NCBI RefSeq assembly: GCF_001748145.1
Contig: NZ_BCQA01000001.1
Coordinates: forward strand, 806,001-870,000
DNA from: Bosea sp. BIWAKO-01
GTDB lineage: Bacteria; Pseudomonadota; Alphaproteobacteria; Rhizobiales; Beijerinckiaceae
Length of the DNA: 64,000 bases
Reading direction: 5' to 3'
The stretch's first letter is position 1, and each line of letters begins with the position of its first letter. The notes beneath the pieces were generated by a model, which was given only the letters and a program-made list of their open reading frames with translations, ran no database searches and was not told the origin of the DNA. Shown here piece after piece: positions 6,811-10,177 of the stretch. The translations under genes were made by a program, and so were the position numbers.

Positions 6811-6849
6811 ATATCGCGATGCTGCCCGCCCCAACGGGAGCCTGCGTCG

Positions 6850-7755
6850 ATGAAGTCCAATCTCGCCTGGGATGATTTCAGGCTGGTCAAGGCAATTGCC
6901 GATCAGGGCGGGCTGACGGGGGCGGCGACTGCTCTCGGGGTCAATCATTCCACCGTGTTCCGCCGGCTCGGGCAGATCGAGGAACAACTCGGCCTGCCGC
7001 TCTTCGAACGCCACAAGACCGGCTACGTCGCCACCTGCGCCGGCGAAGAGATGGCCGTCCTGGCGAGCCGCATGGAGGAGGATGTCACCGCCTTCGACCG
7101 CCGCCTGGCCGGGCGCGATGTCGCCCCGTCCGGCGAGGTTCGCGTGACCACGACCGATACGCTCTTCCTCAATATGCTGCTGCCGATCTTCGCTGCGTTC
7201 CGCAAGGCGCATCCGGCGATCCGGCTGGATGTCGCCATCGGCTACCAGACGCTCAATCTCTCGAAGCGCGACGCCGATGTCGCGATCCGGGCCAGCGATT
7301 CGCCCGGCGAAACCCTGGTCGGGCGCCGGCTCGCGACGCTGAACTGGGCGATCTATGGCCGCAGCGAGGACGGGCTCACCTCGGAGGAAGCTGCCGATCC
7401 TGCAGTTCTCTTCAAGCGGGACTGGGTCACGCTCGGCGACCAGCTCGGCTATGTGAAGGCGGCACGCCATGTCCGCGACCATGTCGCGCCGGAGCGCATC
7501 GCGCTCAAATGCTCGGCCGTGCTCGGCCTCACCGAAGCCGTCGAACAGGGAATCGGCATCGGCCCCCTGCCCTGTTTCATCGCCGATCAGCGCCCCAGCC
7601 TGAAGCGCCTGACGGCGCCCAATCCAGATTTCTCGACGGGACTATGGATCCTGACCCATCCCGATATCCGGAACGCGCCGCGCGTGCGTGCCTTCATGGA
7701 CTTTTGTGGAAACGAACTCGCGAAGCACCGCGGCCTGATCGAGGGGACGGGGTGA
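6850..7755 (+). CDS. LysR-family transcriptional regulator
   Basis: A 301-residue regulator. A winged helix-turn-helix occupies residues 5-63 (recognition region around HSTVFRRLGQIEEQLG), followed by a linker and a two-lobed periplasmic-binding-like effector domain. The ATG at 6850 gives the usual short N-terminus (MKSNLAWDDF); a TTG at 6796 would add 18 atypical residues. It starts 71 bases after sua5 on the same strand and faces the acuI gene from the opposite direction, so no divergent target is adjacent. Its target and effector are unknown; a candidate autoregulatory repeat lies at 6795-6810. Confidence 0.85.
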   Translation: MKSNLAWDDFRLVKAIADQGGLTGAATALGVNHSTVFRRLGQIEEQLGLPLFERHKTGYVATCAGEEMAVLASRMEEDVTAFDRRLAGRDVAPSGEVRVTTTDTLFLNMLLPIFAAFRKAHPAIRLDVAIGYQTLNLSKRDADVAIRASDSPGETLVGRRLATLNWAIYGRSEDGLTSEEAADPAVLFKRDWVTLGDQLGYVKAARHVRDHVAPERIALKCSAVLGLTEAVEQGIGIGPLPCFIADQRPSLKRLTAPNPDFSTGLWILTHPDIRNAPRVRAFMDFCGNELAKHRGLIEGTG

Positions 7756-7859: not shown

Positions 7860-8846
7860 CTAGCCCACCTCGACCACCACTCGCCCCCGCACCTTGCCCT
7901 CGACGATTGCCTTGCCGGTCTCGATCACGCTTTCCAGCGGAATCGTCGAGGTCATCGAAGCAAGCTTGTCGCGGTCGAGATCAGAAGCCAGCCGCGCCCA
8001 GGCCTCGAGCCTGCGTGGTTTCGGGCACATCACCGAATCGACCCCGAGGAGCGAGACGCCGCGCAGGATGAAGGGCGCAACCGAGGCCGGCAGATCCATG
8101 CCCTGGGCCAGGCCGCAGGCGGCAACGGCGCCGCCATACCGGGTCATCGCCAGCAGATTGGCGAGCGTATGCGAGCCGACCGCATCGACGCCTGCGATCC
8201 AGCGCTCCTTGGCCAGCGGCTTGCCGGGGTTGGAGAGCTCGTTGCGGTCGATGATCTCGGCCGCGCCGAGGCCCTTGAGATAGTCGGCCTCTTCAGCGCG
8301 GCCGGTCGAGGCGATGACATGCCAGCCAGCCTTCGCCAAAAGCGCGATCGCGACCGAGCCGACGCCGCCGGCAGCACCGGTGACCACGACCGGGCCATCC
8401 GCTGGTTTCAGCCCGTGCTTCTCCAGCGCCAGCACGCAAAGCATCGCGGTATAGCCCGCGGTACCGATCGCCATGGCGTCGGCCGGGGTCATGCCGGCGG
8501 GCAGCGGCACCAGCCAATCGCCCTTGACCCGGCTCTTCTGGGCATAGGCGCCAAGATGGGTCTCGCCCGTGCCCCAGCCATCGAGGATGACGAGATCGCC
8601 CGGCTTGAAGTCGGGGTGGCTGGAGGTCTCGACCCGGCCGGAGAAGTCGATGCCCGGGATCATCGGCCAGCGCCGGATCACCGGCGCCTTGCCGGTGATC
8701 GCGAGCCCGTCCTTGTAATTCACCGTCGAGTGCGTGACGCGGACGGTGACGTCGCCCTCCATCAGGTCGGCTTCGGCGAAATCCGCAAAGGCGAGGTTCG
8801 GGCCGGTTTCGCCCTTCGTCGCGACGAGCGCCTTGAAGCTGGACAT
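7860..8846 (-). CDS. acuI: acrylyl-CoA reductase-type quinone oxidoreductase (YhdH/AcuI family)
   Basis: A 328-residue zinc-independent medium-chain dehydrogenase/reductase. The family signature [10 protein letters not shown] lies near residue 45, MIPGIDFSG near residue 65, and the NADPH-binding loop TGAAGGVGS near residue 155. AcuI enzymes reduce acryloyl-CoA to propionyl-CoA, detoxifying a reactive intermediate of 3-hydroxypropionate and DMSP metabolism. The ribosome-binding site (AGGAG, 6 bases before the ATG) lies inside the 3' arm of a perfect 13-base hairpin (8851-8885), which should strongly affect translation. The upstream MFS gene ends 95 bases away on the same strand. Confidence 0.85.
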
Positions 8847-8850
8847 GCAT

Positions 8851-8885
8851 CACTCCTGTCGTGCCAACTGGTCACGACAGGAGTG
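8851..8885 (-). promoter_or_regulatory. perfect 13-bp hairpin covering the acuI ribosome-binding site
   Basis: CACTCCTGTCGTG (8851-8863) and CACGACAGGAGTG (8873-8885) are exact reverse complements around a 9-base loop. In the acuI message the 3' arm contains the AGGAG that precedes the start codon by 6 bases, so the folded RNA would hide the ribosome-binding site. As DNA it could equally be an operator for a dimeric regulator, as acuI genes are often under a TetR-type repressor. There is no T-run, so it is not a terminator of the MFS gene. Confidence 0.75.
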
Positions 8886-8941
8886 GAACGAGCCCGGGCA
8901 ATCCGCAAGGCGCAAGCATGTGCGCCTTTGCGTCACCCCGA

Positions 8942-10177
8942 TCAGGCGGGCTGCGGCACCGCGCGCGTCACAGGCTTCTCGACGATCGGCAGGTTGATCA
9001 GGGCGGAGGCGACCCCCAAAGCGACCGAAAGCCACCAGACGATCTCGTAGGAGCCGGTCCGCTCATAGAGGATGCCGCCGAGCAGCACGCCGAGGAAGCC
9101 GCCGACCTGATGCGAGAAGAAGGCGAAGCCATAGAGCATTGCCATGTATTTCGTGCCGAACATCAGCATGACCAGCGAGGATGTCGGCGGCACGGTCGAG
9201 AGCCAGAACAGGCCGATCACGACGCCGAAGGCCAGCGCGGTTGCCGGGCTCGCCGGCAGCAGGATGAAGGCGGCGATGGCAACCGCCCGCCCCAGATAGA
9301 TCCAGGCCAGCAAATGGCGCTTCGGCATGCGGGAGGTCAGCCAGCCGGAGCCGAGAGAACCCGCCGCATTGGCGAGGCCGATCACGGCAAGCGTCCAGCC
9401 GCCGACCCAGGCCGGCAGCCCGGCATCCTTGAGATAGGCCGGCATATGCGCCGTGATGAAGGCGAGTTGGAAGCCGCAGGTGAAGAAGCCGAGCACGAGC
9501 AGGACGTAGCTGCGATGCTTGAAGGCTTCCGTCAGAGCCTGCGTGACGCTCTGGTTCGGCAGGTTGACGGCCGAAGCAACCTGCTTCGCCCCCCCGGTCT
9601 TGCGGGTCCCCAGCATGATGGCGAGCGGCATCACCAGCAGCACCGAGCCGGCGAAGACGACAAGCGCCTGATGCCACCCGATCTGCTCGATCATGATGTT
9701 GCCGATCGGCGGGAACAGGAACTGGCCGAAGGAACCTGCCGCGGTGCCGGCACCGAACGCCATCGGGCGCCATTGCTCCGGAAGCAGCTTGCCGAAGGCA
9801 GCCAGCACGAGATTGAACGAACAGGCCGAGAGGCCGAAGCCGATCAGCACACCGGCGCCGAGATGCATCGTCATCGGCGTCGTGGCATAGGCCATGACGA
9901 TCAGGCCGGCAGCGTAGAGCAGTGCACCGAAGCACAGCACCCGCACCGTGCCGAATCGGTCGGCCACAGCGCCGGCAAAGGGGGCGCCAAGGCCCCAGAG
10001 CAGGTTCTGCAGGGCAATGGCGATACTGAACGTGTCGCGCCCCCAGCCGAACTCGAGCGTCATCGGGATCTGGAACAGACCGGCGCTGGCGCGGGGGCCG
10101 AAGGTGATCAGCGCGATCAGACAGCCGGCAGCGACGACGATTTCGGGCGCGTATCTGCGCCCAGTGGCCGCACTCAT
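8942..10177 (-). CDS. MFS transporter, monocarboxylate/oxalate-formate type
   Basis: A 411-residue inner-membrane carrier with 12 predicted membrane helices in two bundles. The loop between helices 2 and 3 reads AGAVADRFG, an MFS motif A variant, and a central cytoplasmic loop (TRKTGGAKQ) separates the bundles. The sequence style (GPRASAGLFQIPM at the start, WLSTVPPTSSLVM in the second half) fits the monocarboxylate/oxalate-formate antiporter group. The substrate cannot be read. GGAG lies 5 bases before the ATG. It precedes acuI by 95 bases on the same strand, so a shared role in small organic acid uptake is possible but unproven. Confidence 0.82.
   Translation of the reverse strand: MSAATGRRYAPEIVVAAGCLIALITFGPRASAGLFQIPMTLEFGWGRDTFSIAIALQNLLWGLGAPFAGAVADRFGTVRVLCFGALLYAAGLIVMAYATTPMTMHLGAGVLIGFGLSACSFNLVLAAFGKLLPEQWRPMAFGAGTAAGSFGQFLFPPIGNIMIEQIGWHQALVVFAGSVLLVMPLAIMLGTRKTGGAKQVASAVNLPNQSVTQALTEAFKHRSYVLLVLGFFTCGFQLAFITAHMPAYLKDAGLPAWVGGWTLAVIGLANAAGSLGSGWLTSRMPKRHLLAWIYLGRAVAIAAFILLPASPATALAFGVVIGLFWLSTVPPTSSLVMLMFGTKYMAMLYGFAFFSHQVGGFLGVLLGGILYERTGSYEIVWWLSVALGVASALINLPIVEKPVTRAVPQPA

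Follow-up and report, generated by a model that had tools for sequence, protein, structure and literature searches.

The Shine-Dalgarno (SD) sequence of acuI in Bosea sp. BIWAKO-01 lies in the 3' arm of a long and stable hairpin, the 5' arm of which overlaps a conserved promoter-like motif. On the basis of computed features (the hairpin, the closure of the SD, the coevolution of the arms, the spacing of a TTG box and a -10 element, and the conserved order of an MFS transporter gene and acuI), we propose with moderate confidence that translation of acuI is gated by the origin of the transcript. The gene would be translated mainly from a short message of its own, while read-through RNA would be sealed.

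The acuI leader hairpin

In the 64-kb window (the whole stretch of DNA analysed), acuI (7860..8846, minus strand) encodes acrylyl-CoA reductase (NADPH) (NCBIfam acrylyl_AcuI, 521 bits with a cut-off of 440). Upstream of it, 95 bp away and also on the minus strand, lies the co-directional gene of an MFS transporter (8942..10177), the presumed source of read-through RNA. In message order the gap holds a small hairpin (8932..8904), then the 5' arm (8885..8873), the loop and the 3' arm (8863..8851) of the SD hairpin, followed by the ATG at 8846; translation of the MFS gene stops 56 bases upstream of the 5' arm. The small hairpin (CGCAAAGGCGCA / TGCGCCTTGCG, 8904..8932, minus strand) has one bulge and no T-run, and a putative -35 element lies in its 3' arm. 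A LysR-type regulator gene (6838..7755, plus strand), a possible regulator, is convergent with acuI, an arrangement found for a LysR relative in 28 of the 80 fetched loci. LysR relatives (43-86% identical) often adjoin acuI beyond Bosea as well and are candidate regulators of the acuI promoter.

The two arms of the SD hairpin, at 8851-8863 and 8873-8885, form a perfect 13-base reverse-complementary pair separated by 9 bases, as a sequence-only reading of this DNA had stated, and constitute the sole perfect non-overlapping 13-base inverted repeat listed in the 64 kb at gaps of up to 20 bases; the next one, I16, has arms of 12 bases. In message sense (minus strand), the 5' arm reads CACTCCTGTCGTG and contains the anti-SD CTCCT, the loop (8864..8872) reads ACCAGTTGG and the 3' arm reads CACGACAGGAGTG. 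The SD itself, AGGAG (8857..8853), is 6 bases before the ATG and lies wholly inside the 3' arm, also as that reading had it. RNA of 8835-8900 (minus strand) folds at -35.9 kcal/mol (z -5.7), and 0 of 200 shuffles were equally stable; the claim that the hairpin hides the SD is borne out by folding.

For a background, leaders were folded across 464 kb of this Bosea genome, made up of the window plus 400 kb taken elsewhere. Among the 224 genes of this background, which were roughly called, starts included, from frame composition, acuI ranked first for both SD closure and leader stability, and in a window-only sample it again came first, of 32 genes. Closure as such occurs elsewhere, since 14 of the 224 genes had an SD unpaired probability of 0.01 or less; these fold probabilities refer to naked RNA free of ribosomes. 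Another gene of the same genome, approximately called at L298 3686-5719 (plus strand), has a closed SD (0.002) that pairs with upstream bases and a co-directional neighbour at 199 bp, and may be a second case.

Exact matches to the 13-mer in the whole genome were confined to the two arms at acuI, and 3 further sites appeared at one mismatch, compared with 10 matches for the reversed control. The palindrome does not recur before unrelated genes of this genome, whereas the sequence-only reading had named such recurrence as a refutation, and a repetitive (REP-like) palindrome was rejected. One similar site (L149) was considered as a repeat copy and rejected: it lies 3' of a sulfatase-like reading frame and has a terminator-like look.

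A promoter-like motif overlaps the 5' arm

Alignment of upstream regions on their TTG box revealed a motif that the sequence-only reading had overlooked, and whose -10 element sits within the 5' arm. It consists of [CG]TTGNN, 16-18 bases and a further element whose second position is A (A at -11), and was seen in Bosea, Methylobacterium, Microvirga and Phreatobacter loci. In the window, the putative -35 element is CTTGCG (8904..8909, minus strand), which keeps a near-fixed distance to the 5' arm across relatives, and the putative -10 is either CCACTC (spacer 17) or CACTCC (spacer 18) within 8880..8886 (minus strand), where only the first base falls outside the 5' arm. Leader length varies, but the box keeps a steady distance to the -10. 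Of 124 orthologues, 71 had a [CG]TTG box at -67..-49 and 65 also had A at position 2 of the -10 at a spacing of 16-18, whereas 200 dinucleotide shuffles of the same upstream regions gave means of 16.8 (maximum 26) for the box and 7.5 (maximum 17) for box plus A; because the orthologue rows are related, no probability is attached to this comparison.

A consensus sigma-70 scan of 8800-9000 found no promoter. Weak -10 elements are nevertheless acceptable here, because those of Methylorubrum, as in other Alphaproteobacteria, have no conserved T at -7 according to passages of PMC9320726. We infer from the alignment that the motif is acuI's own promoter. With its -10 in the 5' arm, the message would be predicted to start near 8874, at the edge of the loop (8871..8875, minus strand, as judged from the -10 position), and so acuI's own mRNA should be without the 5' arm. 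The geometry differs between genera: the -10 is inside the 5' arm in Bosea, while in Microvirga the 5' arm is inside the -35/-10 spacer and the -10 is in the loop. If the Microvirga motif is a promoter, its RNA likewise cannot hold the 5' arm.

SD closure among relatives

Two close relatives (acuI 98.5 and 97.6% identical) carry identical arms, so the lack of conservation in close relatives that the sequence-only reading had allowed for was not observed. In Bosea beyond the window's clade the arm letters change, and the SD is still paired in many lineages. Loci were placed by eye in groups W, B, C, D, E, M1 and M2, which broadly agree with the acuI tree. The arms read CACTCCTaGGG.../...CCC(G/A)GGAGTG in group B (8 Bosea loci), TATCTCCTG.../...CAGGAGA in group C (8 Bosea loci), and TGCCGGAA/TTCCGGAGG and relatives in group D (4 Bosea loci). 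The SD unpaired probability was below 0.2 in 3/3 loci of W, 8/8 of B, 6/8 of C and 3/4 of D (20 of 23 together), and in 0/12 of E. It was below 0.2 in 6 of the 14 scored ungrouped rows and in only 26 of the 49 scored Bosea rows (50 in all). The 15 ungrouped rows, in which the promoter region is replaced or unlike, stand outside the swap, own-mRNA and nearest-pair tests described below. When the upstream part was shuffled 60 times, a level of 0.05 or less was reached by 17 of these 23 loci in W, B, C and D (3, 8, 5 and 1, respectively).

Group E (12 Bosea loci) has no SD hairpin and an unchanged gene order. On the acuI tree, W lies near the base of Bosea, C forms a grade, B and D lie inside, and E forms a single clade that also takes in two ungrouped rows; support is weak for many branches, 20 of the 57 inner ones being open. 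The simplest reading of this distribution is an old hairpin that was repeatedly rebuilt and then lost in group E. Two loci of group E (L103 and L111) have a stem of more than 20 base pairs, GGCCGATGGGGTTGCGG.../...CCGCTGCAACCTTGTCGGCC, in place of the SD hairpin, about 30-80 bases upstream of acuI, with the -35 in one arm and the -10 in the other; its inner part is visible in other group E loci. In read-through RNA this stem may be a target of RNase III or a terminator-like element. An open SD with a long stem could fit a shared need to handle read-through RNA, or equally a dispensable SD hairpin.

A further 40 family loci were taken from the top of the list of relatives, 33 of them new. In the genus assigned here to Microvirga, whose motif recurs in named Microvirga loci, 44 of 46 loci keep the TTG box, 34 of them as CTTGCC and 28 with CACAAATG at N17, with the 5' arm (in many loci GATCCTCCGCCGCGCC) occupying the -35/-10 spacer. 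Folding and swap analyses covered these 44 loci, the 2 without a TTG box being omitted; the SD unpaired probability was below 0.2 in 29/44, and in 37/44 the SD was paired to promoter bases (probability >0.5). One Microvirga place, represented by L284 (the same as L234), has perfect 13-bp arms (CCTCCCTTGCGCC/GGCGCAAGGGAGG) flanking the -10 motif, a second instance of exact long arms with different letters. In Methylobacterium group M1 the SD unpaired probability was below 0.1 in 10 of 12 loci, although the scored SD of L051 and L052 is doubtful, lying 19-20 bases from the start.

Coevolution of the arms

Since short leaders made the 5' and 3' segments overlap, arm-by-arm duplex energies gave way to a group swap. 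Across 10 Bosea groups, cognate combinations averaged -12.7 kcal/mol compared with -9.4 kcal/mol for permuted ones (p=0.0003); the signal remained without E (p=0.001) and was weaker without W and E (p=0.009). The Microvirga swap gave p=0.0003 over 44 rows and p=0.013 over 11 arm clusters, where 7 of the 11 clusters favoured their own 3' part, 1 was a tie and 3 preferred a foreign one, and where a single cluster accounts for 33 of the 44 rows.

Effects of relatedness were limited in a nearest-pair test, which used greedy disjoint pairs chosen by acuI distance and skipped pairs with one side identical, leaving 8 of 11 possible pairs in Bosea and 19 of 22 in Microvirga. The own arm paired better in 7/8 Bosea pairs (two of the 8 being practically zero) and in 14/19 Microvirga pairs, or 21/27 pooled (p=0.0011). 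On the antisense strand the own arm was better in 13 of the 27 pairs (sense versus antisense difference, p=0.08), and in the group E control it was better in 2 of 6. Methylobacterium gave no swap signal (group swap p=0.14; nearest pairs 5/8, p=0.32), and as there is no coevolution signal there, this genus counts as SD closure only. The compensatory changes in relatives raised by the sequence-only reading are thus found in Bosea and Microvirga, and Methylobacterium fails the same check. A swap signal confined to the sense strand, together with the G-U pairs in groups B, C and D, points towards acuI-strand RNA and away from a DNA operator, although the direct comparison of the strands reaches only p=0.08.

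Read-through RNA, own message and gene context

The SD was also folded in the predicted own mRNA. Mean SD unpaired probabilities in read-through RNA and own mRNA were 0.00 and 0.60 in group W (the same values as for the window's acuI itself), 0.00 and 0.44 in B, 0.11 and 0.37 in C, and 0.03 and 0.56 in M1 (the own value from 10 of 12 loci). Microvirga loci averaged 0.17 when the promoter part was included, compared with 0.62 for the own message as predicted. Bosea group D was equally closed in both forms (0.18 in read-through RNA, 0.18 in predicted own mRNA), and five Microvirga loci (L253, L258, L280, L282 and L286) still had values of 0.02-0.20 in the predicted own mRNA. The MFS gene is co-directional and upstream in 50/50 Bosea rows and 45/46 Microvirga loci.

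As sealing should matter only where RNA runs in from upstream and the gene has a promoter of its own, SD closure was compared by neighbour direction and motif over 165 distinct upstream regions, 162 of which were scored (3 had no SD score). With a co-directional neighbour and the promoter motif (n=104), the median SD unpaired probability was 0.11 and 49% of rows were below 0.1; with a co-directional neighbour and no motif (n=42), the median was 0.34 and 14% were below 0.1; with a divergent neighbour (n=12), 0 rows were below 0.1; in the remaining 4 the neighbour was uncalled. The contrasts gave p=0.0006 and 0.008, values to be read knowing that the motif/no-motif contrast is partly built in (the promoter overlaps the arm), that the rows are related, that only 5 divergent rows have the motif, and that L255 and L268 were scored as promoter-less only through a strict rule. 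Phreatobacter loci keep the motif with a divergent neighbour (RadC in L021), and their SD unpaired probabilities were 0.42 and 0.80.

These comparisons are consistent with the following mechanism. A promoter of acuI would sit between the MFS gene and the acuI start codon, its DNA (the -10 in Bosea, the -35/-10 spacer in Microvirga) doubling as the 5' arm, with the acuI SD in the 3' arm. Read-through RNA from the MFS gene, which we infer to occur, would carry both arms, fold and hide the SD, and so presumably be poorly translated for acuI. RNA from the own promoter would begin in or near the loop without the 5' arm and have a freer SD. The output of acuI would then track its own, perhaps regulated, promoter and be insulated from expression of the transporter gene. 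The sequence-only reading had held that a ligand, a protein, temperature or translation must open the stem; with the -10 in the 5' arm and the own message predicted to be free of that arm, no such opener would be needed, and the claim finds no support.

Alternative explanations

The palindrome, which would span -10 to +20, might instead be a DNA operator bound by a dimeric repressor, perhaps the neighbouring LysR or an AcuR-like TetR-type regulator, and we consider this unlikely, albeit the least unlikely of the rivals. Perfect 13-base arms over a promoter motif, identical in all three loci of the window's clade, would suit such a site, as would the LysR relative convergent with acuI in 28 of the 80 fetched loci. 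There is precedent in Rhodobacter sphaeroides, where passages of PMC3338564 and PMC4029986 describe a TetR-type repressor of acuR-acuI-dddL that is relieved by acrylate, and in Halomonas-like strains, for which passages of PMC13104084 report AT-rich palindromes at acuI promoters as potential TetR sites and a LysR regulator on related genes. The window's palindrome, however, is not AT-rich, its exact arm is absent before other genes of the genome, and conserved half-sites at fixed spacing, as expected of a palindromic operator, were not found across lineages: the CTCCT-to-AGGAG span ranges from about 23 to 33 bp across Bosea sequences (read by eye from the alignment), and the arm letters vary by lineage, with identity confined to the three loci of the window's clade. 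The swap signal from the sense strand alone and the use of G-U pairs in groups B, C and D also count against it. The operator alternative of the sequence-only reading is therefore weakened by varying half-site spacing and letters and by the lack of an antisense swap signal, and a fixed-geometry operator fits less well than gating by transcript origin.

Also unlikely, and placed after the operator in our ranking, is an RNA switch in the main acuI message, which would start upstream of both arms or be the MFS-acuI read-through RNA itself, with a ligand, protein, temperature or ribosome opening the hairpin. A very stable hairpin with the SD inside, SD closure kept with coevolving arms in many relatives, and the conserved MFS-acuI order would all be expected of such a switch. 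A 13-bp GC-rich stem is, however, very stable for a simple RNA thermometer, and translation of the MFS gene terminates 56 bases short of the 5' arm. The TTG-box/-10 motif falls within the 5' arm or, in the case of Microvirga, has its -10 in the loop, no conserved loop sequence was seen beyond the -10 letters, and Rfam returned no match at E<=1 in 8500-9300, on which ground a riboswitch or RNA thermometer of a described family was rejected. A quite improbable reading is that the structure serves the 3' end, processing or termination of the MFS mRNA, by stopping exonucleases, attracting RNase III or ending transcription, and includes the SD merely because the region is short. The second hairpin upstream of the SD hairpin in the window speaks for it, as do the two folded group E loci with a stem of more than 20 pairs between the MFS gene and the SD, which looks like another hairpin confined to read-through RNA and doing the same job. 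Yet no terminator-like site (a GC-rich stem followed by a T-run) was found in 8800-9000, which led us to reject an intrinsic terminator, and the SD core itself is paired in W, B, most of C and Microvirga. Chance complementarity between a CTCC-rich -10 and the SD in GC-rich DNA, with no function at all, appears very improbable: SD-complementary cores do arise readily, as the 14 of 224 sampled genes closed to 0.01 illustrate, and Methylobacterium passes no coevolution test, but acuI ranks first of the 224 genes, 17 of 23 loci in W, B, C and D stand out from their shuffles, and the arms coevolve in Bosea and Microvirga.

Comparison with known systems

Related arrangements exist in mobile elements and phages. 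In the IS10 and IS50 transposase genes, an inverted repeat at the element end reportedly hides the SD in read-through RNA; the hiding of an SD in such RNA is alike at acuI, whereas the repeats there are element ends and acuI belongs to a conserved chromosomal gene pair. For the phage T4 lysozyme gene e, and also soc and 49, passages of PMC3014915 describe long RNA started upstream that folds over the SD and is poorly translated, and late promoters located where the 5' strand is encoded, which yield well-translated RNA without that strand. At acuI, folding places the SD in a stable hairpin of upstream RNA, and the counterpart of the promoter that encodes the 5' strand is a putative one, a motif far more frequent than in shuffles and steady in spacing, for which the consensus scan was negative. 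The T4 genes are phage lysis or late genes under early/late switching, while acuI is a metabolic gene of the chromosome that follows a transporter gene and has no known timing switch. According to passages of PMC2988022, transcripts from upstream promoters of I-TevI, I-TevII, I-TevIII, segB and mobE form a hairpin for which RNA from the proximal promoter is too short; RNA of the proximal promoter without enough sequence for the hairpin resembles what we propose for acuI, and the difference is that these homing endonucleases are mobile-element genes in phages with other promoters. The read-through mRNA isoform at isrK of Salmonella Gifsy-1 is translationally inactive in the account of PMC4825925, which is a likeness; there an sRNA activates in trans, and no such RNA is known for acuI. 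Titles and abstract openings among the open-access papers listed yielded no chromosomal example of such a gate, and the passages found by terms in open-access papers on acuI mention AT-rich palindromes at acuI promoters as possible TetR sites (PMC13104084) but no leader hairpin.

A tentative extension is that promoters of ordinary genes on the chromosome can have a dual use, in which -10 or spacer DNA is selected as the anti-SD strand of a hairpin so that translation depends on where the transcript began, with acuI showing at least two geometries. Such promoters may be a general and so far unannotated means of insulating co-directional genes that are closely packed. If true, a single constraint would act jointly on the letters of the acuI promoter and the structure of the leader as they evolve, and a device so far documented in phages would extend to housekeeping metabolism. 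Operon maps built on co-transcription would then overstate co-expression, as a gene could be on a long RNA and yet not be made from it. The device would also have a simple searchable signature, an anti-SD between the -35 and +1 of an internal promoter.

Other upstream regions at acuI

Six loci (L011, L017, L091, L014, L150 and L163) share a repeat, CCTTCGAGACGC...CTCCTCAGGATGAGGG or a near variant, in the MFS-acuI gap, at the place of the promoter motif and the 5' arm of their relatives. In L163 the repeat occupies the promoter/5' arm place of its relatives, and the letters of the 3' arm are still there. Four Beijerinckiaceae-type loci (L031, L041, L207 and L221) have a different motif, CTTGAC...TGGCATGAT. 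Among them, a separate hairpin (CCCCGC/GCGGGG) closes the SD of L041 (unpaired probability 0.003), and the SDs of L207 and L221 are open (0.45).
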